Shown here: one piece after another, positions 1 to 49,300 of the stretch
Position numbering within the stretch: position 1 is the stretch's first letter
Layout of the letters: the number at the start of each line of letters is the position of its first letter
Source: Gautieria morchelliformis
Taxonomy: Eukaryota; Basidiomycota; Agaricomycetes; Gomphales; Gomphaceae
Assembly (NCBI GenBank): GCA_015179125.1
Contig: WHVA01000260.1
Location: forward strand, 1 to 64,000
Length of the DNA stretch: 64,000 nt
Reading direction: 5' to 3'
Made by a program: the position numbers and the translations under genes
Notes under the pieces: generated by a model
What the model was told of the DNA's origin: nothing
What the model saw: the letters and a program-made list of their open reading frames with translations, nothing else
Database searches by the model: none

Positions 1-520
1 ACCTCCGCAACCTCCCCAATCCATCGATTCGCGCTACTGGGAAAGACATTCTGAGTCGCTCGCGAAACCTCCACCAGAGCAAGAACAACAAGTCTTCTGA
101 CAAGAAGTCTGATAAAGACAAGAAGAAGACCAATTCCGGAAACAACAACTCCGGAAACAACAACTCGAACAACAACTCGGAAACAACAACTCCGGAAACA
201 ACAACTCCAAACAAACAAACTCCGGAAACAACAACTCCGGAAACAACAACAACAACAACAGTTCCGGATCCAACTCCGGCAACCGGAACAACAACCCACC
301 CCTCGCAACAACCAGGCCTCTGGTTCCAACACCAAGCCCGGAAGAGCACTCCGACCTTTCCGACAAACTTGGGAAGGACGGAAAACTAACCCCTGTAGAA
401 CGCCAGCGTCGCATGGACAACAACCTTTGCCTTTTCTGCGGCAAAGCGTCACGTCGCTCGCGACTGCACTCGCGCTTCCGCCTCCGCTGCTAAGGCCAAG
501 GGCTGCGCAGCAAGACGGAA
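1..520 (+). other. gag tail with Asn-rich repeat and zinc-knuckle remnant
   Basis: This is the 3' part of gag of the Ty3/gypsy element. A low-complexity stretch at about 139-290 is built from repeats of an AACAAC-TCCGGAA unit and would encode an Asn/Ser/Gly-rich linker. A Cys-x2-Cys start of a CCHC nucleocapsid knuckle is visible near 430-470. It belongs to the broken element and is treated as fossil. Confidence 0.7.
139..290. repeat. tandem AACAAC/CCGGAA low-complexity repeat in gag
   Basis: An imperfect tandem repeat of about 15 bases mixes AACAACAAC with CTCCGGAA. It probably arose by slippage inside the Asn-rich gag linker. It supplies part of the CCGGAA/TTCCGG excess of the element. Confidence 0.8.
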
Positions 521-930: not shown

Positions 931-1259
931 CCGTTGTACTAGGACACAATTGGCTCACCCGATATAATCCGTCGATTAACTGGGCATTGGGTCAAATACA
1001 GTTCCGTACCCCGGATCAACTTCCATCTATTCCGACGTCGTCCACAAAGATGGCTCAGGCCTCTTCTGCAACTCCGCTCGTGGATTCAGTTCCGCACTCC
1101 GGTCCCGCTTTAGCACCTCCGTCCCTCGAAGCTCCTCGAATTGCGCTCGTCTCCGCCACCGCTTTCCGAGTATTGCAACGGCAAGAAGATACGACCGTTT
1201 TCCAGCTTCACCTTTCCGATTCGGCTTCAGTCAAGGCTCGTTCCGCCTCGACTTCCGCT

Positions 1260-2780
1260 CTGGTCAACATGAGCTCAGTTCCGGAAGAATATCGTGACTT
1301 CCCGGACGTGTTCAATAAGGCCAAAGCCGATAAACCTGCTGAACATCGACCTTACGATCTGAAGATAGATTTGGAAGAAGGGGCATCTCCGCCCCTTGGA
1401 CCGATCTACTCTCTTTCGCAAAGTGAACTCCAAACTCTCCGAGAGTTCGTCGATGAACATCTCAACATGGGCTTTATCCGCCCTTCGCTGTCTCCACACG
1501 GCGCTCAGGTCCTTTTCATCAAGAAGAAGGATGGATCTCTCCGCCTCTGCGTCGATTTCCGCGGACTCAATGCCCTTACTAAGAAGGACAAATACCCGCT
1601 TCCGCGCATTTCCGACCTACTCGACACTCCCCGCAGGGCGAAGATCTACACCAAAATTGACCTCCGGCACGCTTATCACCTTGTCCACATCCGGGAAGGT
1701 GACGAGTGGAAAACCACTTTCCGCACCCGCTACGGTGCTTTTGAGTGGGTTGTCATGCCTTTCGGTCTAACCAATGCTCCCGCCGCTTTTCAGCGATTCA
1801 TGAACAACGTATTTTCCGACCTCCTCGACGTATGCGTTCTAGTCTACATTGACGACATCCTCATCTATTCCGACACACCGGAAAAACATCAGGAACATGA
1901 CCGCGAAGTACTCCGCCGTCTACGCAAACACCATCTCTACGCAAAAGCAGAGAAATGCGAATGGCATCGCGACACGGTCGAATACCTCGGCTACATCCTC
2001 TCTCCAACAGGTCTTACCATGGCAGAGGACAAAGTCAAGGCAATTCAAGAATGGCTGGAACCCCGACGTGTTAAGGATGTACAGTCTTTCCTTGGCTTCA
2101 CCAACTTTTACCGGCGTTTCATTTATAATTTTTCCAACATTACTGTTCCGCTCACGCGTCTCACCAGGAAGGGTGCCCCATGGAATTTCACTCCGGAATG
2201 CCGTTCCGCATTTGAAGCCCTCAAATCGGCCTTCACTACGGCTCCTATACTCGGTTTCTGGATTCCTGATGCCCAACTTGTACTCGAAACCAACGCTTCC
2301 GACTATGCACTAGCCGCCATTCTTTCCATCATTTCCCCCGACGACGGAGAAATTCATCCAATCGCCTTTCATTCCCACACCTTTTCCGCCCCGGAACTCA
2401 ACTACAACGTCCACGATAAAGAACTACTTGCGATTTTCGAAGCCTTCAAAATCTGGAGACACTACCACAATTATAGAACTTAGATCTGATATTTTTTTTT
2501 CAGATTCAGAATGAAGATCTCTAATGATTCTTATGTTAATTCTTTATACCCCTTTGTAATGAAGAAATACCCCGAAGGTCCAACTTATCCGATCAACGTT
2601 GTAACGGATCATAAGAACCTTGAGTATTTCGCGACTACTAAGATCTTGACCCGCCGTCAAGTCCGCTGGTCTGAATATCTCTCACAATTCAACATGGTGA
2701 TCCGCTTCTGCCCCGGAAAGCTCGGAGAAAAACCCGACGCACTCACTAGACGTTGGGACGTCTACCCAAAAGAGGGAAGT
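1260..2780 (+). other. reverse transcriptase and RNase H of the Ty3/gypsy element
   Basis: The reverse transcriptase shows the LCVDFRGLN palm motif near 1540 and the catalytic YIDDILIYS motif at about 1845-1871. The connection and an RNase H part with the LETNASDYA region follow at about 2280-2310, with the KPDALTRR motif near 2730. Order and motifs are those of chromoviruses of the Tf1/sushi type. The copy is broken. Confidence 0.9.
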
Positions 2781-2959: not shown

Positions 2960-4375
2960 CGTTGCTAATGAAAAGCCTCGCGAAAAAAGGATTAAAATCG
3001 CTTTAAAACCCTGTTTTCCCAGCTGATAGTAGCTAATACACGTGGCTATTGTTGGGAGAACTCTATTCAAATATTCCTTGAATTTCCTCTTATTTTTTCG
3101 CCATTTAACTTGGCTTCCCTGGCTCAAAAACTCCTTATTCTGTCAGGCAGAGTTATGAACCCACACACGTCCACAACTCTGCCACAGCCGCTCAGTTTCA
3201 AACTCCGACCGGAGCTTCCCACGAACCGTAAACTCGGAGTTACAGGCACTCAAGCACCTACAACTCCGGTACCTCGGCTCACTCAAACTCAGCCACTGAG
3301 TCTGAATGTGTCCCCTACCGCTTACACAAGCCTGTGCAATTCAAACCCAGCTGGCACATGACTTGCATCATAGCAACCATGGCTGTGCAAGGCTGCGTAC
3401 AAAGTCACACAAAGATGTACAAAGCCAAAACTAGGGTGCAGGTTTGATAAAGCCTATTGGATGAAGGATCCTCCAAACGCAACGCTACGACACCAAATAG
3501 GCCCCTTGATGTCATAGCGGCTGTGCAGGGCAGTGCAGGGCAGTGCAAGGCTGTGAAAGGCTGTGTAAGGCTGTGCAAACCAGGGAAGGTGATTGGCTAT
3601 CTATTTCCAATTTCTTTGCACAAACACGCCGCAATAGTTACGAGGGTGTGTTTCAGCAGTGCAAATATTTACTTATGACATCACTCACCTAATAGATAGA
3701 AGAACCCCATTTTACGTAATCCTGTGTATTTTACAATATAAAAGGAGGCCATTCTGACCTCCTTGATCCATTCAAGCAATCTACCCATCTTCTATCCTAC
3801 ACGTGACCTCATGTGACTTGCATCTTACTAAGCTGCTAATCCCAGCTAGGGTTATTCACTTACTTTAGTGTCTAATTCCTTGTTAAGTAGTTACTTTACT
3901 GCTTAGCCACTTGGACTAATCCTCCGGGTGTAATTCTACAGAGTGAGTCTGTCAATTGAAAGTCTTGCCATTCGCACTCCAATACCCGAGACGATCTAGT
4001 CAGTCGATTTTCCTGATTAGAGACTTTCACAAGTCGCTTTGTTCACAAAACTCGTCCCTCGTTTTATTGCTGTGCGCTGGTAGATTATCAGGGCAGTCCA
4101 TTTATAAACTCGCCTGCTAAGTACATTCCTTTATATTTTGGAATACGCTTGGACCCCGATAGTGTCCTTGAACTTACATTCTTTTAGTTTATTGTTCAGT
4201 GCTGCTAAGAAACGTATTGCCTTCCATCCGTATTAACTTGGACTAGTTTTTACGCGGATTGCAACCAAGGTACAAATATTAAATTATTTCCGGAGTTGTG
4301 CTGCAGCATTGTTTAATATTCTTTGAGTCTCGTAAATGACACGTTCTGATAGATTGAAGTGTTAGCAATAACACC
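2960..4375. mobile_element. insertion of another LTR element inside the chromovirus
   Basis: Homology to the chromovirus Pol stops near 2955 and resumes near 4376 with the segment leading into integrase. The intervening 1.4 kb has no long open frame, is more AT-rich and holds only one TTCCG, unlike the host element. It contains a promoter-like TATAAAAGG near 3738 and an LTR-like stretch, so it is read as a nested LTR remnant, possibly a solo LTR with extra flank. It must be younger than the host element. Exact ends and target duplication could not be settled by eye. Confidence 0.7.
3141..4341 (+). repeat. candidate solo LTR within the insertion
   Basis: The stretch starts TGTCAGGCAGAG and ends in TGACA, giving a 5-base TGTCA/TGACA inverted terminus typical of LTRs. 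A TATAAAAG at about 3738 would place the promoter some 600 bases in. No clean 5-base target duplication is visible, so the ends are tentative. Confidence 0.45.
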
Positions 4376-4539
4376 AAAGTCTTGAAGGGTTCCAAAACAC
4401 CGACCCCATCTCCGCAACCCACCTCGATGACCCCACCAGTCCTGGATGGTCCCTTGATTCTGACGGATTTCTCCGGTACAAGTCCCGGATTTACGTTCCG
4501 GATACCAACGATCTACGACTTCGCGTACTCCAGCAAAGC

Positions 4540-5500
4540 CACGATCATCCGCTCTCAGGACACCAAGGCCAGAACAAAACCCTCGACATAATCCGACGTA
4601 CCTATACTTGGCCTCTTCTCCGCACGATGGTCCAAGACTACTGCAAGTCATGCACCACCTGTATGCGAGCCAAGCCTCAACGTCACAAACCCTACGGCCT
4701 CCTGAAGCAACTTCTGATCCCGGAACAACCGTGGAATTCGATATCCATGGATTTCATTGAGAAACTTCCTAAGTCATCTGGCTATGATACCATTCTAGTG
4801 ATCGTTGACCGCCTCACAAAGCAGTCCATCTTTATTCCGACCTACGACACCATCACCTCCGCCCAACTCGCACAACTCTTCGTGCTCCACATCTTTTCCA
4901 AGCACGGAATCCCTTCCCATGTCACTTCCGACCGTGGTTCCGAATTCGTGTCATCCTTTTTCCGCACACTCGGCAAGGCTCTCGACATGAAGCTCCACTT
5001 CACTTCCGGTTATCATCCCGAAGGAGACGGACAAACGGAACGTACTAATGAGACCCTTGAGCAGTATCTCCGTGTCTATTGCAACTACCAACACAGCAAT
5101 TGGTCCGACCTTCTTCCACTCACGGAATTTGCCTACAACAATGCGCCTTCCACTACCACCGGAATTTCACCCTTTTACGCCAACAAGGGCTACCACCCAA
5201 ATCTCACCATCCACCCTGAACGCGACCTTGCCTCTGCAAGAGCCCGAGATTTCATTGTGGAACTTGACGACCTTCACCAGCACCTCCGAGAGAACATTAC
5301 CGCTGCACAAAAGAGATACCAAACTTCCGCCGATCGGAAACGACTTCTGCAACCGGCATTCAAGATTGGCGACAAAGTCTTTGTCAAAGCGGAAAACTTC
5401 CGCACTACTCGCCCCTCGAAGAAGCTCTCTGAGAAATACCTTGGCCCTTACGAGATCATTGCTAAGGCCGGCAGTCGTTCTTTCACTCTCAGACTTCCTG
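4540..5500 (+). other. integrase of the Ty3/gypsy element
   Basis: An HHCC zinc region with the CxxC pair of CKSCTTCMRAKPQ near 4645-4680 is followed by the DDE catalytic core: Asp in SMDFIEKLP near 4750, Asp in TSDRGSEF near 4930, and Glu in QTERTNETLEQYL near 5030-5065. A GPY/F-type module (YLGPYEII) lies near 5440. Fossil copy. Confidence 0.9.
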
Positions 5501-5614
5501 ACAATATGCGCGCAGTACACCCGGTATTCCATGTCTCCATGCTTGAGCCCGCAGTTCCGAATACAATTCCGAATCAAGAACAACCTCCACCTCCGCCAGT
5601 CGTCATCGACGGAG

Positions 5615-5826
5615 AACCGAAATATGAGATCTCGGAAATTCTCAACTCCAAGCTCGACAGACGATACCGCTGCCAACTCCAGTACCTAGTCAAGTGGGCA
5701 GGCTATGAAAACACCGACGAAGAGACCTCGTGGATTTCCGCCATGGAGCTCGATCACGCCTCTGACCTCGTCTCTGATTTTCACAAGTCTTATCCTGATA
5801 AGCCTGGCCCCATTTCCGCGCCCTAG
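5615..5826 (+). other. chromodomain at the end of Pol
   Basis: The last part of Pol reads as a chromodomain. YEISEILNSK is followed by the LVKWAGY core with its Trp, and the helix-leading ETSW motif, near 5625-5760. The frame closes at 5826. In the family this domain binds modified histone H3 tails and steers integration. Its presence defines the element as a chromovirus. Confidence 0.88.
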
Positions 5827-6127
5827 TCATTTCCGACCTCGTTTCCAACACCCATTGCTTTCTTACAGTTCTCAAGTCATTATTAAAATCCGACTATTAT
5901 TCCGATACGCTTATTTCCGACACTTCAAGAAATTATATTACAAGTCTCTTAGACCCCTACTCCTCCCTCATTGTCTCCGCCTCGACCTCTTCTTCCGCTT
6001 CCGGCTCTTTTTCCACCTCTCCTACCTCGACGCTCACCAACTCCGTTTCCACCCTTTCCCTCGTTTCCGCCCCCCCGCTCGGACCCGCTTCCGCCCCAAT
6101 TCCCTGCTCCCGCAGCCGCGCATCCAT

Positions 6128-7145
6128 TCAGTCCCGGACCAGATCGTTCCGCCACCGCATTTCCCGCGTCAACTGCTGCAGGATGGTAGACATAACAATC
6201 ATCTGGTTCTGAATTGACAGAACCTGATGCTGCTGAACCTCGGCCATTTCGATCATGATATCCCGGATTTCACGTTGCTGTTTCCGCATGGCCCTCAGCG
6301 ACCCGGCAATATCGAGAAGGGGATAAGACATGGTGAATCAGTTCAAAACCGCCTGTCCCGATTTTCCGGTCACCGGAAACGATTCCTCGGACCTCCCTCC
6401 ACTCGGTCCCGGTTCCGACTTCGGATTCGACTCCTCAACCTTCTGTTTCTTTCGCTCCAGCCTTGAAGCGCACCCATCCACAACGCAGTGTCTCTTCCTG
6501 TCACGGCACTGATCGCACGACGTTTCCCGTGGATTACTCGACCATGTGCAATCCGCCCCCTTAGACTCGCATGGGTCGCAAGGAGCTTTTTCCTCCTCAT
6601 CGCCGTCCCGCGTTTTCCACTTCTTAGTTGCGGGATTTTCCGGCCCTAGTTCACGCAGCTCCAACATCCGATTCAACTTCTCCTTCCAAGCCTTCTGGAA
6701 TGCGTCCGCCTGATGTTTCCGTTCTGCCACAAGGTTCACCAGAGTAGTGATTTCCTTTTGCTTCCCTTTTCCTTCGGGAGACGGTGTACTTTCCGCCAAA
6801 CTTTCCGAGTCTGACTCTGACTCGTCCTGAACATTATTCTGGAAGAACTTTTAGTTGATTCAAGAACTTTTTCCGCCGGACATTCCCGACTCACCTGTTC
6901 CTTTTCCGCCCTCTCCGCAGCAACTTTCTCCGCAGCCGCCTTCTCTGCAGCAGCTTTGTCCGCAGCAGCTTTCCGTGCCGTGTTCCGTTTCCGTTTCTCT
7001 TCACGGACGCGTTCCATTCCTTCTCTTTCTGCGCAGCTTCCTCAGCCTCGCGTTTTTCGGCCAATTCCTTTTGCGCGAGCATATCAGCGAAATGCTGTTT
7101 CATCTCGGTGCTGGACATTTTAGAGAAGTCTACTGGAGCACTCAT
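6128..7145 (-). pseudogene. antisense accessory gene with Zn2Cys6-like cluster (element-borne, broken)
   Basis: Between integrase and the 3' LTR the minus strand carries protein-like sequence over about 1 kb, broken in a few places. The first part, from 7145, is Ala/Lys/Glu-rich and should form a coiled coil. The middle part holds six cysteines at 6485-6580 with spacing C-x2-C-x6-C-x10-C-x2-C-x6-C. The second half reads CDQCRDRKRHC, the basic signature seen in fungal binuclear zinc clusters. The last part has a long amphipathic helix rich in Gln and Met. This is the spacing of Zn2Cys6 DNA-binding domains, although in classical members the basic run lies in the first half. I infer a DNA-binding or nucleic-acid chaperone protein of the element; function is unproven. 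Confidence 0.65.
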
Positions 7146-7254
7146 GATGGAATGGACAGAAGATGCGTTTGTTCCTCAGCCTATTTTTTAGAACTCCGAC
7201 GTGTTTGTTCACAGGTCACGTGATCCGACCTGTGGTCTCGCGGGGCTCGACCTT

Positions 7255-7264
7255 AGAAGGGAGA
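7255..7264 (+). other. polypurine tract candidate
   Basis: A short purine run, AGAAGGGAGA, sits three bases before the 3' LTR, where plus-strand priming normally occurs in Ty3-type elements. Confidence 0.5.
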
Positions 7265-7267
7265 TAC

Positions 7268-7929
7268 TGTTACGACCGTTCATTTCGGACCTCCGACCCT
7301 CAGTTCCGCCACACCTTCCGCCCCTCCAATATTTCCGACATTCCGCCCATTGTTCTATTCCCTTGTTCTTTCGACTCTATTACTCGGACCCACCGGACCC
7401 GTTTCATCGTTCATCAAAACCACATATCCGGTCACCCTTGTAATTTGTTGTCAGATATGTTTTCCCGACCCCTTGTTCTTTGCCATTGTTCTACCTTACC
7501 CTGAACCCCCCTTGTAGTCCCATTGTTCCCAATAGTTAGTTCCCACGCATTGTCTACTCGACTTCCGCTTCCCCTGGAATTTGCTTAGTACTATGTCATT
7601 ACCTGTTGTCTCAGCTCTTTGTATAAAAGCCTGTCATGTATGTCTCTTATTCTGAAATCAGATAATCGCCTTCGATACTTGATTTCCTTCGCTCCATCTC
7701 CTGTTCTTAGTACAGCGAGTCTAGCAAGATCTCAGTCTCTCTCCGCCTTCCATCTTCCGCCTTCCACCTCAGTTCCGACTCAAGTTCCGACCAACCTCTA
7801 GTTCAGTACTTTCCGACTTCCGACTCATTTCCGAAATACCTAGGACGATAGTTCATTGGGGGCGCAACCTACAAGTTGAAGCCGCTGTCCTTTCCAGTTC
7901 CGACTTAGCGGAAATCTCGATACGTAACA
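7268..7929 (+). repeat. 3' LTR of the chromovirus
   Basis: The LTR is 662 bases, starts TGTTACG and ends CGTAACA, a perfect 7-base inverted terminus. A TATAAAA box lies at 7622-7628. Twelve TTCCG pentamers were counted on the plus strand but only one CGGAA. The partner LTR lies outside the window, so LTR divergence and the target duplication cannot be read. Confidence 0.85.
7622..7628 (+). promoter_or_regulatory. TATA box in the 3' LTR
   Basis: TATAAAA lies about 355 bases into the LTR, followed by pyrimidine-rich sequence. This is the expected place for the element's promoter. Confidence 0.55.
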
Positions 7930-9650: not shown

Positions 9651-9724
9651 AGCATCATACTGACCATTCTGCCTGTTGAATGATTTGCTATACCAGTGAT
9701 GACAATTGGCGCATGCTCGGCAGC

Positions 9725-9787
9725 TTGGCATGACGCACAACTTAGCCAAAGTCTGCAAGACCTTGGCTAACTTGTGCGTCATGCCAA
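9725..9787. repeat. near-perfect inverted repeat (hairpin)
   Basis: Arms at 9725-9751 and 9761-9787 are complementary over 27 bases with two mismatches, separated by a 9-base loop (TCTGCAAGA). The sequence lies just past the GT17 relic and is not explained by any gene. It could be a foldback element, a cruciform-forming site, or the source of a small hairpin RNA. Confidence 0.85.
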
Positions 9788-9789
9788 CA

Positions 9790-10795
9790 TGCCAGGAAGA
9801 TGGATCAGGAACATTCTTTTTCAACATGCTGGAAGAACTTACCTTGCACAAGCTTCCCCAACTCGCTTCGTTGTTCAGAGAGAATCAGTGATTTTCATGG
9901 CTCACAAGTGTATGATTCATGACTTACAGCAACCCTGAGGGTGGACTGAGGGAAAAGGTACACCTTAGGATCAAGGATAGCTTGTCTGATCTGGATGCGA
10001 GAGGGAGACTCCAGCTCATATGACCAATGCACACGTTAAACCAGCTCGTCTGGTCGAAGTTTCCAGTGCCCCTTTGACTGATCATCGCCTTCACTGCAGG
10101 CCCAATTACAAGAACATCTCTTCGGAGAGCACGATGCAGAGGTTGGTTCCCATTCCAGTAAGAAAACTGCTATCTCAAAACTGTGGACCAAAGCACTTTG
10201 GGACAACGCAGATGCAGAGCGAAACAGCTGGACCCGCTTGACGATGAGCACCCTCCACCGACAAGCAGCATTGTTTCCCAGAGAGATACAGCTGAGGCTC
10301 AGAATCTCGCTCATGTCGCAGATTTGTGTGTGGAACAGGAGGAAATCAGGCTTAGTGGGAACACGCTATGGCTGGTGTTAGTCAACTTTCTGATGCAGGA
10401 GGCGGAGATTGAAGAGGACCATGACAACAATGGGAGCGACAATCCAATGTCGCATTCTAACAACATAGTCATAAAGTTGATGCCAAGTCAGATGTTCCGG
10501 TGATTATTATCACCTGGTCGCAAACCACAGCATGGGGAGAGTAGTCCCTCACCTTAGAATTTTATCAAGTAATTTATCAAGCTGTATCAATGCTGTAGAA
10601 GAACATCTGACTCTTCTCGACTGGCCACGAAACATGCAAGCATAGTAGAGCTATAGGTCCACCGTGTGTAAATGTTACGACATTATTCATTGATACTTAT
10701 CCATCTGACTGTGTTTAGAGTTTGATTGGCTCTCTTTTACCCTCCCGAGCTGCAGTTAAGTCCTTCACATACTGGTTTGGGAATAAAGTCAGAAA
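9790..10795. other. no gene recognised
   Basis: Fragmented short frames on both strands and no recognisable domain. It may contain the unrecognisable rest of the GT17 relic. Confidence 0.4.
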
Positions 10796-16267: not shown

Positions 16268-18625
16268 ATGACCCCGACCGATGGTGCCCCCAGCGATACC
16301 AGCCAGCCCACACAGAGCGAGGCCCTCATTCCATATCCTACCCCGTCTCCACCGTCGCCGTCGCTCCCCTTGCCTGTGTTCGACACGCCTTCACACGATG
16401 ACGTTAAGAAAGGTGCCGTTGAACTCCCCCCAAAGGGCAGCGACACCATTTCCCCCGAGAAGCAGCAGCCGGCACGCAAGCTTTGCGTCAGACATCAGCG
16501 TATGGCCGACGAGGGAACGAGTCTCAAGCTGCAGCAGGTATGAGTACTCGCGCTGCCACACGCACACCCTTTTTAACGTCCAACAGTCACTCAATGCGCT
16601 CCCTCTCAAGGAGCGCGAGACCGTCAATAGGATTTGGTCCGACTTCAGCGTCTCGTCCCACCCCCGGCGAGAGCTGATCCTGCATGGCATTCTTACAATG
16701 TGCTGCTTCTCCCAGCTTTCACTTCTTACTGAGCAGCTGCAGCACCTGATCCGCCTCGATCCTTTCCACGTCTTTCCCAGAGAGGTCGCGCTCAAGGTCC
16801 TTCAGTCTCTGGACGCGATCTCGCTCGGCCGGGCTGCTCAGGTGTCCAAGCACTGGCGAAGCCTCGCCGATGACAACATTTTGTGGAAGAACATATGCGA
16901 ACAGCACATCGACAAGAAGTGTTCAAAGTGCGGATGGGGATTACCCTTGCTCGAAAAGAGACGAATCATCCGATCCCCGCTCCCATTGCCGCCGTCCCCA
17001 GCGCAGTCTTCGTCTTCACTCTCATCTCAGTCATCTAAGCGCGATATAGAACTCTCCGGAGTAGTGCCTGATACCCGTCCACACAAGCGACACAAGCCTG
17101 ATCGCACTGACCTCCCCGATCCTCCTCTCTCTCCGCCAGGTCCTCGATCGCGTCTTGTCCGCGGCCTGTCAGATGACTGCGATCTTACTCCCAGCGCCCT
17201 CAGTCCGGTCGAAGTAACGCGCCCCTGGAAAGATGTCTACTGTGAACGTCTCACCATCGAGCGCAACTGGCGTCGTGGTCGTTGTTCTGTGCGCACCCTC
17301 CAGGGGCATACTGACGGTGTGATGTGCATGCAATTCTCCGAGACTCTCCCTCATCCGGCATTCCCCGTTCTCATCACTGGCTCCTATGACCGTACTGTCC
17401 GTGTTTGGAACATGGAATCCGGAACGGAAGTCCGTTGTCTCCGTGGACATACGCGAGCGGTTCGTGCATTGCAGTTTGACGAGGCAAAACTTATTACGGG
17501 ATCGATGGACCGGACATTGCGTATATGGGACTGGCGTAATGGCAAATGTATCCGCACGCTCGAGGGCCATACCGAGGGTGTCGTGTGTCTTCATTTTGAT
17601 GCCAACATTCTTGTCAGCGGAAGCGTCGACACGACCGTCAAGGTGTGGAATTTTCGTAGCGGAGCATGCTTCACTCTTCGTGGACATCATGACTGGGTCA
17701 ACTCGGTGGCTATATGGGATCGCCCTGATGTGGACCCCATACAAGCCGACGTTCCTGCTGGTGGTATAGATCTTGGCAAGATGCTTTTCTCCGCCTCGGA
17801 CGATGGCGCTATCAAACTTTGGGATCTTAACCGCCGCACTTGCATTCGTGAGTTCATTGACCATGTCGGACAGGTCCAAAGTATTCGTGTCGTCACCGTC
17901 GACCCAAATGCTGATGAGAACGAACTGCTCGCACCATCGCCCGAGGACGAGGAAGACAGTAAAACCGAAGTAGTTGAGCACCGCGCGTCGCGACCTCCCT
18001 ACGGTGATCCACGGTCGACGCTTGCTTCTGGCCTTCCTGGGTGGGCACCTGCATCAGTGAGTGTGCCCACTCACCTTCCAGCGGATCATCCTGGCTTCGA
18101 TGCTCCAGAGTTTGATCCCCCACCTGGATTTGACCCACACGCTTATCGTGGAAGTCCTGGCGATATACCTCCGCCACACGGTTTTGCCCATGCAGATAAT
18201 GAAAACGCTAAGGGTAAGGGTAAGCAACGGTCGCGGTCGTCGACGCCTGGGCGGATGGATGGCCCGACACCTGTTCTTGTCTCCGGCAGCCTTGATAATA
18301 CGATCAAAGTGTGGGATGTGGAGACTGGCAAGGTACTCAAGACACTATTTGGACATATTGAAGGTGTCTGGTCTATTGCATGCGATAAATTGAGGTTGGT
18401 TAGCGGGAGTCACGATCGTACGATCAAGGTGCGTGGAGATGAAGGAGTGGTGCTGCGGCTTGGGTTAATGTACGTTTCTTCCAGGTCTGGGTACGCGAAG
18501 AGGGAAGATGCATGGTTACCCTCGTTGGCCATCGTGGTGCCGTGACATGCCTCTCACTCGGCGATGACAAGATCGTCTCAGGCAGTGATGATGGTGACAT
18601 AAAAATCTGGAGTTTCTCTCCGTGA
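16268..18625 (+). CDS. F-box/WD40 protein, MET30/SCON-2-like SCF subunit
   Basis: About 750 residues, exons 16268-16537, 16587-18428 and 18485-18625. After a Pro/Ser-rich tail come the MET30-type N-terminal region (NALPLKERETVNRIWSDFS) and the F-box (HVFPREVALKVLQSLDAISL), which should bind Skp1. Next is the KKCSKCGWGLPLL block diagnostic of MET30/SCON-2 relatives, then about seven WD40 repeats from near 17290 to the end. A low-complexity insert (near 17930-18270) splits the propeller. In yeast and Neurospora these proteins are substrate receptors of SCF ubiquitin ligases that control the bZIP activator of sulfur uptake. That role is inferred here from family membership. An antisense open frame of 270 codons across the WD repeats is a shadow. 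Confidence 0.9.
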
Positions 18626-36325: not shown

Positions 36326-37621
36326 TCATTGGTTTAAGGAAGACGATGATGCAAGGCCAATGCCTTCGCAACTGAGAATGGTGCGTGCTGTGCCATGCTC
36401 GTCCTCGATTTGGAATTTGGCACCTGAGAGTTTCTCCGCCAACCATACTGCAGTCCTGAGTAGAAAGTCAGGCTTCGTTCACGAGAAATAAGAAAACGAA
36501 CTTGGTATGCATTGTCAAAGGGCCAGTTGCTACAGTAGACTTCCCCTTTGCCAGTGCCATAAATATAATGATTTGATCCTGAACAACATCAGTATGTGTC
36601 TATGGTTACGGGTCAATGTTACAGAACCTGCAGGTAATCGTCGACGCAGCCTCCATGTTTCAAGTTGCGTGCCAGCTCTTCGGCGGCATCGTCGCCTGTT
36701 TTTCCTGCGTCGGTCCCTTTGGATCCTATGGCACCGCCACCGATGATGCAGGATCCATCAGTTTCGGCCCAGAGAATAATGCCAGACCCGCTTCCGGTGG
36801 CGTCGTTGTCGTTGTCACGCCCAACTTCTATATCAATGAGACCATGATCGACGCCGCAAGAGACCAGGCGTAGTCTCGCAGCGTCTGCCATCTTGCGGGC
36901 GATGTGTGACGGTAGGGTTCCCGCTACGTAGGCTTTGCCTTTGATCGCTGTGATGTTACCTCGAAATGTTAGATTGAAAGAGGGGAGAGGCCCTGGGCTA
37001 TGAGGTATTGACAAGACTACCTTCCCTCCCCCTCGGGGGTAATAACCACGCCTCTGAATATCGAGCGTTGGTTGGAGATGGAAGTGACGACGGAGAAAGG
37101 GCAGGAACACTTGTGTCGTGTAGTCGATTTGCGGTGCCGCGATGGCGTTGGTGCCACCGCGGAGTGCTAGAATAGATTCTAAAGCTTCGAGTGGGGAAGG
37201 GGAAGAAAACAGAAGGCAGGGAAGGGCTATCTGGAGGAGAAGTGTCGTAGAACCTGCTGTGCCAGTGTCGGCGAGGTAGTTCCCAACCTTTGGACGACCA
37301 GGGTGGAAATATAGGTGCTCAGAGCCCTTTTCAACCCCTACAATTCTAGCATCACATATTTCTGCTGCTAATTTTACACCTAAAGTATGAGGTATCGGGC
37401 GTTAGCGCTTAGCGTCCCACTGACATCACTGAAGCTGGTAGACCTGCAACATGTTGGGGCTTGAAACCCTTGGGGTTTCTGTTCTGCCGAATGTTTGATA
37501 TAGAAATAGGGCGAGAGAGGAGAACTGAAAATGCTACAGCGTTGCGGATGAGCTGGCCGCCGCCTTCTAGAACGCTCCCGTCGATGAGCGTGGTACTATC
37601 CGAACTTGCTGGAGCTGCCAT
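36326..37621 (-). CDS. RNA 3'-terminal phosphate cyclase
   Basis: A 378-residue enzyme that turns RNA 3'-phosphate ends into 2',3'-cyclic phosphates with ATP. Exons on the minus strand are 37621-37444, 37379-36628, 36578-36502 and 36455-36326. Motifs are IDGSVLEGGGQLIRNA at the N-terminus, HLYFHPGRP, YYPRGGGKVVL, the substrate-domain VDHGLIDIEV, and TMHTKTAVWLAEKL, whose histidine should be the adenylylated catalytic residue. All are intact, and length matches RtcA-type rather than RCL1-type proteins. The start at 37621 (MAAPASSD) is preferred; the frame is open to a Met at 37741, which would add a basic 40-residue extension, conceivably an organelle signal. Confidence 0.93.
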
Positions 37622-43396: not shown

Positions 43397-46300
43397 ATGG
43401 ACTCCAATACATCCTCTACCAGTTCGGGCAGTCAGACGCCAATACATACAATTGTCAAGGCTCAGATCGTTTTTCTGCTCTCGACACTGACAGAGGATAA
43501 CTTTGATAGGAATCAACACGAGATTCGCTCGGTAAGATTTGCGCAGTTTGTGCACGGTCGAGTAGGACGTTTAATGTTTGTCGCAGCTGTCTGAACAACA
43601 TGGCCTGGACACGTATCTCCATTTCATCCGTCGCCTCATAGTTCACTCGCAAGCTCGCCTGGCGAGCACCGCTGCCCCTTCAGCGTTCGACACGTCAACG
43701 TCTCTTACTTTCCGTCTTCTCGTGCAGGAAACACAGCGTCTCTCGCGCGATCCATTTCTTGCTGAGCGCTTCCGCGATGGCATCGACAAGGGTGATGGCG
43801 ATATTTTTCGCCACTTTGACCTCGTTCGTTTCGCAGATCGCGTCGGCTTGCGGCCGCTCGAACGTTTCATCCTTGCAAGTGCCATCGTCTCTGCGCCGGT
43901 GCGCAAAGAGCTTGCCAACCAGGCGGCTACGATTATCCGTGTAGACTTTGAGAACGCTGTGCTCTCGCTCTGCCAGCACCCCTCATTCGACCATGCCGAT
44001 CTCAGCCCCGGCCAAGTTGGGAAGCTACTCAGCAACCTCCTGTCCGATCCGCCTGCGGATTCACCTATTCTTGACGGACAACAGCGCCAAGCACTCGTCG
44101 TTGCTGCACAAGCAAAGTATGGCACAGATATTATGGCGCCAATTCTTCAGCAGATTTTCCCGACCTTGAGGTGCGTCAGTAGTCTCCCATTCGCGATCTG
44201 AAGTTTGACAGCCATCCCTATTCGAAAAGCTTGCCTCCGGGGACGTCGCTCGTTCAGACTTTGTGTGATCTTGGCCCCGAGATCACGAGCGAGCCCGCCA
44301 CGGTCCGTTCCCTTTTACAGCGGTTTGGTATCACGGAGTCCTCGCCACCAACCGATCCTCAAGTAGTCGAGATTATTTCGACGCTGAGTAGATTTGCTGC
44401 TGAAGGAACACAACTGTGCGATGCGGGCGCTCTGATTCGTGCACTGAGCGGCTTTGTGAGTTTGCTAGCAAGCCTATTTCGATGGCAATCCTGCTCACAT
44501 ATTGATAGAACGTCTCGATCCACTGGCCAGGCCTTATTTTGGCCTTTGACTGGCCAGACAGGTCGGGAGTTGACACCGCTACGTTGAAGCTTCTCATTGC
44601 CATCCTTCTGAATGCTCCTCGTGAGGTCGAGCCGCATGCCGTTGCAGGTTTTTGGTCTACGTGGTCGAACCCGCTCTACCAACTTCGTCTCCTTGACGCT
44701 CTTCTGTCGCTTCCTGCGGACACTTTCAACTTTGTCTCGCTCCCTGGCCACCGTATTGTGACAGTCGACGATGTAGCCAATGCTAGTCCTACTATCAAGG
44801 CGCTTGCAGCAAATGTCCAGGGCCACACTTGGAATTCACTTGAGCTATTTGACGTCCTTGTTACACTCGGCGATGCCGAGAGTCTTGAGATCAGGTCCTG
44901 CGTGCGGGAGATGCTCGACAAAGCCGTCAAGATCAGCGCCGAGCTCGTGCACATGGGCTTACTACAAGTCTCGGTGAGTGCTGCATATGGAGCGACACGC
45001 GCCGGCGAGGGCGCTGAAGATGCGGTCGTACAGAAACCTTGGAACGGCACACAGAAGGAGTACGCGGCCAAGCTATTGGGCATGTTTCTTGCAGGACACC
45101 CAAACCATCAACTTGTCTTCATGCGCATATGGCAAATTGACCCAACTTATCTTACTCATTCTTTCCGTGATTATTACAACGAAAGCCCGTTAAATATCAC
45201 GAGAATCCTTGATGTTGCCCAGGACCTCAAGGTATTCATATAATTATTTTCATCTATAAACTGTTTCAGATTAACGGCGCTGAATAACTCAGATTCTTGA
45301 TGCATTGTTGGATGTGCGTCCGTTCACATTTGCACTGGACGTCGCGGCTCTTGCATCTCGCAGAGAATACCTTAATCTGGACAAGTGGTTGGCGGATAAT
45401 ATCTCGAACCATGGAGCCGACTTTTTGCGCTCTGTGATTAACTTTTTGGAGCTGAAGGCTTCTAGCGAGAAGACAGCCCGAATATCCGATCCTCCCGAAG
45501 ATTCCACAACAATGGCTTTAAATCCGCAAACCATCGCCATTTTCCTTAGAATTCTTCGTAACAGGTGCGTCTAAAATTTCGCCGTCCAAGTTCCCGATGT
45601 TTAATAACTCCAAGCAGTTCTTCCATGCTGGATGAGGCAGACACTGCATATTGCCTGGAAGTCCGCAATGCCTGCCTCCAGATACATCCGCGTCTCATGA
45701 ACCTGTCTCCCGACTCAGACCAGGAACCTGGATTCTCTGTTGTTACTTACAGCACCGAAGTGGAATCCGAGGTTGACGGCATATATAAGCAGATGTATGA
45801 TGAGAATATTACCATCGACCAAGTCATCCAAATGCTGCAGCGTACCAAGGAATCTACGAGCTCGCGGGATCACGAGATCTTTTCGTGTATGCTGCACTTC
45901 CTCTTCGACGAGTACAAATTTTTCCAGTCCTTCTACCCACCGAGGGAGTTGGCCATGACGGGTTATCTTTTCGGGTCACTCATCCAGCATCGGCTAGTCG
46001 ATTACATCCCACTCGGTATTGCCATTCGCTACATCCTGGATGCCCTACAGTGTCCACCCGACACGAACTTGTTCAAATTTGGTGTCCAGGCTCTTTCACG
46101 TTTTGAGTCACGCCTACCAGAGTGGCAACCCCTTTGTGAAAAGTTGCTACAAATCCCACATCTGTTGGAGGCACGTCCAGACCTGGCAGATAGTGCTCGT
46201 CGCGCACTTCTGAACCCAGAAGAGACGCTCGTGGAGGGGGCATTAGGCGCTATGAACGGCGCCACTGAACCCGCACACTATGCATTCACAGCTCTGAAAC

Positions 46301-49300
46301 CTGACGATTTCGCCAATACTGAAGCCGAGGAACCCGAGGAAGAGGTGTCTGACAAGATACTTTTCCTTGTCAATAACCTTGCGCCATCGAATTTTGAGTC
46401 TAAAACAGAAGAGATGAAGGAACGATTTAAGGACCAGTACGCAAGGTGGTTTGCAAACTATCTCGTCGATCAGCGTGTCAGCACAGAACCGAACAATCAT
46501 CAGCTTTACTTACGCTTTTTGGACGGCTTGGACCGAAAGGCACTATTCGGTTATGTCATCCATGAGACGTACGTCAAGTCGGCGAATTTGCTGAACTCAG
46601 AGAAGACATTACAGTCTAGTTCGGAAAGGACCATTCTGAAGAACCTGGGTTCTTGGCTCGGGTCTCTTACCCTCGCACGGAACAAACCCATCATGTACAA
46701 AAATCTGTCGTTCAAGGACCTTTTGCTGGAGGGCTATGACAGTAATCGTCTTATTGTGGCCATTCCATTCGTCTGCAAGATTCTGGAGGCGTGTTCAAAG
46801 TCCATGGTGTTCAAGCCTCCGAATCCATGGCTCATGGCCGTAATAAGCCTATTGGTTGAATTGTATCACTTCGCAGAGCTCAAGTTGAACCTCAAATTTG
46901 AGATCGAAGTGCTCTGCAAAAGCCTGGAGCTTGATCTGGACCAGGTGGAAGCCACAACCGTGCTTCGTAACAGACCTATTGCGGACACGTTAGCCGGCCC
47001 GCCGCTTCCTGATTATGTCGGTGACATTGACGCTCTGCCTATCGGCGGGTATGATCCAACTCACATTGGCGCTGATTCTCAGCTAATCTCGTCACTTACG
47101 AGTGCGAGTCCGTCGGAAGTTCCCCGCGGCGTTGGTGCACAGATCGAAGCTATCTTGCTGAATTTGTCGAATGTGGTCCAGGTCAGTCCGGAATTGGCAC
47201 CATTACACACGAACCATTCCTTCAAGCGTGCGGTACAAATCGCTGTTGATCGGGCTGTCCGTGAGGTGAGTCCAGGTCATAGCTGTTGTTTCATTGCATC
47301 TAGCTTACCCTTCGCCAAGATCATCCTTCCGGTCGTAGAAAGGTCTGTCACAATAGCAGGGATTTCCACACGTGAATTGGTCAACAAGGACTTCGTCTCT
47401 GAACCCAACGAGGACAAATTGCGTAATGCGGCACATCTCATGGCCCGCAAGCTGGCAGGCAGTTTAGCGTTAGTTACGTGTAAGGAGCCACTTAAGAGCA
47501 ACCTGGCTACCCACATCCGACATTTCCTCAACGAGCATGGCTTCACGGAGGTGTGTGAGTAATTGTGAAGCTGGTACTCGAACTAAAAACTCCATTAGCA
47601 TATGGTGCCAGAGCAAGTGATAGTGTTGCTCACTAATGAGAACATTGATTTATGTTGCGTGGCCATCGAGAAGGCTGCCATGGATCGTGCCATGGCTGAT
47701 GTCGATGAAGGGTTCAGTGCTGCTTTCGAGACTCGTCGTAGGCACCGTGAGGTAGGCCATTTCCATGTTTAATCAGATATTCGTCTACAGCTTAACCACA
47801 TAGCATCGGTTCGGTCAACCGTTTTGGGATGCGACGAATCATCATACGAACTTCTCTGCGAACCTTCCGGACCCCTTACGCATTCGATCCGGTGGACTTC
47901 AGCCACAGCAAGGGCGGGTGTACGAAGATTTCAGTCAGTGAATATCGTCTCTGGTTCAGTCGTACACTTATCTCTATTGTGCGCAGCAGACGTTCGACGT
48001 AAAGTTGCCAGCAGGCCTGTCTCTCGTGTAGCATATGGGCGGGGAGAACACATATCACAAGGTTCCTATCCGCCTCCGTCACCTGCTCCTGACCGTCATG
48101 GTCCATCTGGTCCTACATTTCTGTCTCATCAAGAAGGCATGGAAAGATTTGGGGTAAGCCTGTATTTCCCTTGCCTTGCCTTTTCATATCGATTCAATAT
48201 CTCTGCCTGCTCAGCGATTGATAGTGGATTTGGAACGAGTACTACCACAAATTCCGGCTCAATCCTTGACTTTACTTCCGCCCAATCACGAGTTTCGACA
48301 ATTTAGTCGACAAATTGTTCTACTTGCCGGACAATCAATCTCACCTGATGATCAAGCACTATCGTTTTCTCAGAAAGTTGTGCAACACCTGTTCAAGACC
48401 CAGGTGCCGATTGGTCGCGAAATGTATGTTGGCGTCCTGGATCATCTTTGCCAGTCCTTCCCGAAGGTCGCCAAGGAAGCTATAGATTGGTTATTGAACG
48501 CTGAAGATGAGGTAATACTTCCACATTGGCTTTGTTTGGCATTCTTACTGAGCCTTGTATAGCGAAAATTCAATGTCCCTGTAACCATCGCTTTACTTCG
48601 TGGCGGTCTTATCCATTTGTGGCAGCAGGATGAACGGCTCTCAAAGTTCATCTACAAAGATCCAAGGCCTAGTTTGCTCAACTTTGCTGCTTCCCTTATT
48701 CGCGAATGCCTGTCTGCTGATCCTCCAGTGGCCTCCCGTCATCAATTCGCCCTTTCTATAGAGGCCCTTAACCATTCCATTCAACTGGGACGAGTTACTG
48801 AGGAGTAAGTTTTCAATTATTAAGCTATCTTTTCAATGCATGATCTATCTGGTGCAGGGCAATGCGCCTTCTGGAAGATCTCCAGGGACAACGTCGAACC
48901 GTAAGACAAGCAGACGAAAATGGATCACCAGTGGCTTCATCAATGGAGTCCGAAGAAGTGCATCTAAAACTCGTGAATTGGTTTCAACATTGGACCAACA
49001 TGTACCAGGAGTCTGCTTCTAGTGAAAAGGCGTTCCTTTCGTTCATTCCGCAGTTCACTGGCCAGGGCATTCTTGCGGAGGATACCCTGACTACTCTCTT
49101 CTTCCGCGTCTGCACGGAAGCAAGTGTCGCTACGTATCACCAACGTCTCGCCACTGGGGAAGAGTCACGGGCTTTTCAAGATATCGACGCTTTCTCTCGG
49201 CTGGTAGTAATGTTGATCAAGTACAATGGTGACGTTGGCACAGGGGCAAATGCTGACCAGAAAAAGTCCCGATATTTGACAAAGATTTTGTCTATCGTTG

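Follow-up and report, generated by a model that had tools for sequence, protein, structure and literature searches.

The window analyzed here, the first 64,000 nucleotides (nt) of contig WHVA01000260.1 of the basidiomycete Gautieria morchelliformis, contains a retrotransposon whose minus strand carries, between the integrase gene and the 3' long terminal repeat (LTR), a reading frame with six regularly spaced cysteines. A sequence-only reading of this locus had described an antisense chromovirus protein with a coiled coil and, tentatively, a fungal Zn2Cys6 cluster, which raises the question of whether the frame is a gene, what its Cys region is and what the protein could do for the element. 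As a gene, the earlier finding proved real and stronger than claimed, but its Zn2Cys6 assignment proved weaker. We favour, with a probability of about one half, the reading that the antisense protein acts in the nucleus, binding DNA and regulating the element that encodes it. On the plus strand, a Pfam profile scan identified protease, reverse transcriptase (RT)/RNase H and an integrase with SH3-like and chromo domains, a domain set that makes the element a Ty3/gypsy chromovirus. This chromovirus, with its antisense gene, is young and abundant in G. morchelliformis.

The antisense gene and its conservation

By sequence signals, the gene has two exons lying between pol and the 3' LTR; it starts at position 7145, and homology reaches about 5957. 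Its parts in the window are the following:

7146..7267, minus strand: leader separating the LTR from the antisense start codon; all 23 copies aligned (none of them of class E, a diverged class of the gene described below) contain ATCACGTGAC
6895..7145, minus strand: exon 1 (ATG at 7145-7143), a charged E/K/R/A helix, with a frame shift within it in the window copy
6839..6894, minus strand: intron of 56 nt, GTGAGT...CCAG, phase 0, placed by the pattern of splice boundaries
5957..6838, minus strand: exon 2 and homologous extent to the family stop codon, with Cys cluster, basic stretches, helical region and acidic tail
6485..6580, minus strand: six-Cys region, C-x2-C-x6-C-x10-C-x2-C-x6-C, permuted zinc-cluster-like by its sequence

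The same layout recurs in other copies: exon 1 encodes a charged helix, the intron is of GTGAGT type and measures 49-57 nt, and in exon 2 the Cys cluster precedes a helical region and, last, the acidic tail. Of the 50 copies fetched (30 from a search with the antisense protein and 20 spread across divergence), 32 have an exon 1 that stays open between its first ATG and the donor; it encodes 79-115 amino acids (aa) that begin with M-S and end with D-F-S-K-M. The coiled coil formerly placed upstream of the cysteines corresponds to this exon, a putative helix judged by its E/K/R/A-rich, highly charged composition and not by a coiled-coil predictor. The intron at 6839-6894, which separates the helix exon from the Cys exon, had escaped the sequence-only reading, as had the start at 7145, the reach of homology to about 5957 and the broken state of the window copy. 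Boundaries of the form GT[AG]AGT...[CT]AG precede exon 2 in 50/50 copies, with lengths of 49-56 nt, a count that is itself no test since donor and acceptor were located by pattern search; further copies gave 51-57 nt, and class E has a candidate intron of 47 nt. The intron length is not a multiple of three in 40 of the 50 copies, so that splicing is needed there to join the frames. Complete copies have an exon 2 of about 290 aa, most of them terminating in ETMREE or nearly so. The window copy is broken by the frame shift in exon 1, by early stops in exon 2 (one in frame at 6338-6340 and another further on) and by an insertion nested within pol, at about 3.0-4.4 kb; its open frame of 153 aa corresponds to window positions 6338-6799.

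In order to establish how constant the gene is, we surveyed the host genome (122 Mb, 1113 contigs). Of 581 candidate copies of the antisense gene, 150 were scored, with 65-99% identity. A second survey started from the integrase and scored 104 of 6777 candidates, 93-100% identical to that of the window, the window's own included. At least 77 of these 104 loci showed an antisense-gene match at the expected place and on the opposite strand; a same-strand match near the integrase was found in 0/104, among the matches listed. Direct reading showed the gene in five more loci (L051, L053, L098, L102 and L103), and a class E gene was present in another five (C309, also read as L101, C1108, C582, C198 and C182), while three loci that were read (L057, L099 and L100) held remnants only. 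The antisense gene, whole or broken, is therefore kept in at least 87 of 104 integrase loci, which answers the earlier question of whether other copies of the family keep the frame; the figure is a minimum, and 14 uninspected loci stand outside the count. At locus L048 (in C139) the antisense frame continues into other sequence, an apparent nested insertion that we take to be a Helitron-like helicase.

Codon-level constraint was measured on 39 distinct exon 2 sequences of at least 230 aa, from which shorter sequences, duplicates and L048 had been dropped. The ratio of nonsynonymous to synonymous divergence (dN/dS) was about 0.18 (432 pairs with dS above 0.6), whereas the same substitutions read in the other five frames gave 1.44, 1.84, 1.16, 0.37 and 1.97. 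Stops interrupt those five frames in nearly all copies, 2 of the 39 being stop-free in one of them; the zero stops in the true frame are partly due to the selection of copies. For exon 1, the 25 distinct sequences gave a dN/dS of about 0.09 (185 pairs at dS above 0.3), and the integrase gave 0.08 for comparison (pairs with dS above 0.03). The antisense protein is under purifying selection, the constraint across copies that the sequence-only reading had proposed to look for. Several copies have long open frames on both strands, as would be expected of a chance frame or of an antisense RNA without protein function; that explanation is hardly credible against the dN/dS values, the stops in the other frames, the intron signals and the kept cysteines, and we rejected it on the codon-level and intron tests. 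Codon constraint, intron signals and position together bear out the earlier proposal of an antisense protein encoded between the integrase and the LTR of a chromovirus. None of the outcomes that this proposal had named as refuting it arose, save for the weakness of the profile match described below.

A permuted zinc-cluster-like region

The minus strand from 6580 to 6485, within the 153-aa open frame, reads CDPCESKGADCTWSSNPRETSCDQCRDRKRHC. The six-Cys spacing reported earlier for these positions was confirmed exactly; both strands of the 64-kb window together contain it a single time, as against about 0.0002 occurrences expected from the Cys-codon frequency. The spacing is kept in 50/50 of the copies first fetched, a count that alone is not independent evidence because those copies were fetched as matches to the antisense protein. 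It is also kept in class E, whose protein is 33-41% identical to those of the other classes.

The Zn2Cys6 consensus consists of six cysteines in the arrangement CX2CX6C-X5..12-CX2CX6..8C, and the spacing found here falls within it. The order of the halves does not: the basic CxxCRxRKxKC half, which comes first in that family, stands second. In profile searches the region did match the Pfam family Zn_clus (PF00172), as the earlier assignment implied, but weakly, the window frame scoring 14.4 bits against a gathering cut-off of 21 bits. Matches at E values up to 1 were obtained for 17 of 20 member proteins (best E 0.0045, i.e. under 18 bits), and the class E protein scored 12.1 bits. The genome's own Zn_clus matches score 26.6-38.4 bits (17 matches among 90 candidates). 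When the halves were scanned separately as fragments of alleles A, B and C', the N-terminal half aligned with profile positions 15-37 (18-19 bits, E 0.0015-0.0032) and the C-terminal half with positions 1-13 (16.2, 14.5 and 11.5 bits; E 0.011, 0.039 and 0.35, respectively). The halves thus lie in permuted order in 3/3 alleles tested, one second half being weak (E 0.35). In class E the first half reached 15.5 bits with Zn_clus, ranked behind two PSI models.

Because the halves are permuted and the scores of the whole proteins scanned stay under 21 bits, the region cannot be filed as a canonical Zn2Cys6 domain. With PF00172 it shares six cysteines, a compatible spacing and a match of each half to one half of the model; it differs in the opposite order of the halves and in falling below the curated cut-off. 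Judged by sequence, it is a permuted zinc-cluster-like region and not a member of the Zn2Cys6 family, so that the resemblance to fungal zinc clusters asserted by the sequence-only reading holds and the family assignment does not. Searches of solved structures gave no credible match to the antisense protein, and searches of viral contigs confirmed no relatives of it. An NCBIfam match to an IS5 transposase in 1 of the 20 members (E 0.031) was taken as noise.

Gene classes in near-identical backbones

Five or more classes of the antisense gene can be told apart: A, B, C with C', D and E. In 11 elements compared piecewise, elements of different classes were 94.7-99.2% identical in integrase DNA as against 66-81% in antisense exon 2, the close classes C and C' being 87-89% identical in exon 2 DNA. 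Integrase and antisense dS were, respectively, 0.07 and 1.24 for the pair A-C', 0.07 and 1.01 for A-D, 0.06 and 1.32 for C-D, and 0.06 and 1.14 for C'-D. Over 45 between-class pairs, the median dS was 0.153 for the integrase (range 0.030-0.197) and 1.160 for the antisense gene (range 0.304-1.909). A single mutation rate cannot yield dS values near 0.07 for one gene and near 1.2 for another on one molecule; recombination can.

The divergence has sharp limits. The RT sequences of four elements (classes A, C, C' and D) share 97.9-99.0% identity with one another and 96-97% with that of the window. Three between-class pairs have LTRs that are 94-100% identical, leaders 88-89% and genes 54-84%; at the pol end identity is back to 97%, so only the leader and the gene show the drop. 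The class A elements L024 and L004 have LTRs only 80-98% identical, more divergent than the LTRs of those three between-class pairs. Alleles C and C' (L052 and L063) have exon 1 and the Cys region in common and differ in the helical part, at gene positions of about 2100-2400, a pattern that indicates mosaicism inside the gene. These comparisons show the antisense gene to be a cassette swapped between elements.

Class E extends this pattern to a much more distant protein, which still keeps, besides the six cysteines, the C-x-W, CVVDG and PLxDIAxSLR stretches and resides in elements with 96% integrase identity. Block by block, class E and class D elements are 87-99% identical in the LTR, 94-98% in the pol end and 65-74% in the leader; the exact word ATCACGTGAC is absent from the class E copy L101 and from L102. 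The matches listed for class E number 144 and range from 100% down to 35% identity, many of them being fragments; they form a larger and more diverged population, from which C309 and C1108 may have received their cassette. The class E query starts with about 13 residues inside the candidate intron; a single TGA present in many class E copies is no sign of decay, since it may fall in that intron.

Lambdoid phages likewise swap immunity regions between similar genomes. By this likeness, the gene could be a multi-allelic identity cassette, its classes circulating by recombination in one backbone and kept apart by selection. A permuted zinc cluster would then underlie a system by which retroelements recognise themselves or their compatibility; we offer this tentatively and think it unlikely. 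The presence of several classes within one backbone, and of an intron in an antisense gene adjoining the 3' LTR, would also fit a negative regulator or copy-number control, either an HBZ-like antisense regulator or a superinfection-immunity factor. That LTR and leader hardly vary with class in A-D argues against such control, which we regard as decidedly unlikely. The swapped pattern suggests that the elements carry an exchangeable regulator of their own. Several gene classes in near-identical backbones amount to a natural swap experiment, and the role of the gene is therefore directly testable by comparing elements in which little else varies.

Possible targets and role of the protein

In the nuclear regulator that we favour, transcription from an antisense promoter in the 3' LTR or leader would yield an mRNA from which the intron is spliced out, while genomic RNA of the sense strand would retain it. 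The protein would enter the nucleus via its basic stretches and form oligomers through its helical parts, and its permuted zinc cluster would bind DNA, most likely at CCG/CGG-type sites in LTR and leader. It would thereby raise or protect transcription of the element, as an activator or an anti-silencer, and template switching while an element is reverse transcribed may carry cassettes from one element to another. The roles put forward by the sequence-only reading, namely regulation, choice of targets and evasion of silencing, stay conjectural. Zinc cluster factors are reported to bind CGG sites (PMC9000951), and the element called PDRE is given as TCCGCGGA (PMC11111045). The plus-strand features of the element are these:

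987..2483, plus strand: reverse transcriptase and start of RNase H (RVT_1, E 6.6e-40)
4627..5826, plus strand: integrase, SH3-like and chromo domains, pol end (SH3_Tf2-1, E 1.7e-20; rve, 1.4e-8; Chromo, 4.2e-7)
7255..7264, plus strand: polypurine tract adjoining the 3' LTR, placed by eye, with identical letters in aligned copies
7268..7929, plus strand: 3' LTR (TGTTACG...CGTAACA), boundaries by eye and homology; within it a TATA-like TATAAAAG at 7622 and 12 sense TTCCG sites

TTCCG is the top of all 1024 5-mers in the window element (z 16.8), with 73 sense occurrences as against 5.3 predicted from the rest of the window, and 24 in antisense orientation. Its count lay above those of synonymous shuffles for RT and for each of four integrases (0/300 each), and its complement CGGAA did so in the integrase (0/300) and in exon 2 of nine copies (0-2/200), with no clear excess in RT (32/300 shuffles reach the count) or exon 1 (6-14/200). 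In the window integrase both orientations are in excess (11 vs 3.6 and 8 vs 1.5). In 8/8 LTRs we counted 9-20 sense TTCCG and 0-1 on the opposite strand. Fourteen control loci bearing integrases (L076-L089) had 0-11 TTCCG, near a dinucleotide expectation of 3.0-10.7; two of them (L086 and L089) are presumably Ty1/copia elements, judging by their pol end, and L088 includes half a kilobase of sister-family integrase. The remainder of the window, like these loci, shows no such excess. The gag region at window positions 114-275 holds tandem repeats with TCCGGAA units, spaced mostly 15 nt apart. Neither TTCCG nor CGGAA occurs in the bin from 3 to 4 kb, in the nested insertion in pol (window 3000-4380).

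Several results weigh against the nuclear regulator. The Zn_clus score lies below the cut-off for every protein scanned, and the second half of the class E region gave no Zn_clus match. A sister Ty3 family (L095-L097; 48-50% integrase identity, with a chromodomain-like match) has a pol-coding TTCCG/CGGAA excess too (14 vs 5.3-6.3 and 9-11 vs 2.4-2.9; 0/300 shuffles), and the antisense Cys pattern was absent from the three copies of it that were read. CpG decay at the motif was no slower than at other CGG/CCG sites (6.6% vs 6.2%, p 0.21; 59 and 64 sites, 28 copies), giving no sign of protection. Finally, the protein and its presumed LTR target do not co-vary, since very similar LTRs pair with different classes.

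As a sister family without the gene has the same excess, the coding-region excess is not specific to the antisense protein; it is a wider Ty3 trait of the host genome, and only the LTR pile-up therefore remains a candidate target. TTCCG sites as specific targets, at first strongly favoured, were weakened by this shared excess. A third Ty3 RT carries 27 motif sites in 1.88 kb (raw count, no shuffles).

The same results bear on the idea of an anti-silencing factor with sequence specificity, which would cover the element encoding it by way of TTCCG/CGGAA sites across LTR, gag, pol and antisense gene, in the manner of VANC proteins. The rank and z score of the motif, its excess over synonymous shuffles and the near-expectation counts of the control loci speak for such a coat. 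The equal excess in the sister family, the unslowed CpG decay and the lack of a clear CGGAA excess in RT speak against it, and conservation of the motif between alleles, although high (61% vs 24%), is unexceptional (rank 10/26 among common words at identical amino acids); we consider the coat unlikely. The mostly sense orientation of the motif (73 vs 24), strongest in the LTRs, could instead suit an RNA-level partner for packaging or chaperoning that recognises UUCCG in the sense genomic RNA, with the Cys cluster as a nucleic-acid-binding knuckle. Both orientations being in excess in the window integrase, and the half-motifs resembling zinc clusters, make such a partner quite improbable.

Compared with known systems, the nuclear regulator that we prefer has partial counterparts. 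VANDAL elements are DNA transposons, and their VANC proteins are unrelated to the chromovirus antisense protein. VANC proteins are described as anti-silencing factors (PMC5735166; PMC10398659) and would by analogy be the closest functional model, sharing the proposed role and a dense short motif mainly in one orientation (PMC5735166); unlike in that system, the motif here is not unique to the gene-bearing element, another Ty3 family sharing the coding excess.

With the HBZ gene the chromovirus gene shares antisense orientation in a retroelement and a place adjoining the 3' LTR, its intron signals being known from sequence alone. HBZ is spliced and has a bZIP domain, and it comes from an animal virus; the protein here has a Cys cluster instead, and no bZIP family appeared among the Pfam matches shown for the window frame and 20 members. 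HBZ of HTLV-1 is cited as a retroelement antisense gene in PMC11963269.

Antisense additional open reading frames (aORF-3R) are reported from the plant LTR retrotransposons Grande (gene23), RIRE2 and Retand (TRP28) (PMC7264820; PMC11963269). Like them, the gene is antisense, lies between pol and the 3' LTR, is present in most family copies and has a conserved coding sequence; of their proteins, Grande gene23 is described in the same sources as nuclear and TRP28 as predicted to bind DNA. They differ in having plant hosts, and Retand is described as a non-chromovirus. Neither a zinc cluster nor allelic cassette exchange figures in the consulted parts of PMC7264820 and PMC11963269, and the main text of the latter never mentions zinc. 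In the chromodomain-bearing fungal element Boty of Botrytis cinerea, brtn is likewise an antisense additional gene (Zhao 2011, via PMC8365987 and PMC4227169), a likeness by description and not by protein sequence. Among the titles and opening lines of abstracts listed in searches of the open-access literature, none described an antisense gene of zinc-cluster type in an LTR retrotransposon of a fungus, and the words zinc and antisense are absent from the main text of PMC3248453, on LTR retrotransposons in fungi. Antisense genes of LTR retrotransposons are known, with their function open (PMC7264820); the one described here has codon-level evidence of function, antisense intron signals and a recognisable permuted zinc cluster. 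Measured against the parts of these sources that were consulted, what is new is the permuted order of the cluster, the intron on the antisense strand and the exchange of cassettes.

Elsewhere in the window, an inverted repeat with arms of 36 nt that are 89% complementary lies at 9719-9793, and host genes encode an F-box/WD40 protein (16272-18542), an RNA 3'-terminal phosphate cyclase (36622-37401) and CNOT1 (44509-47559).
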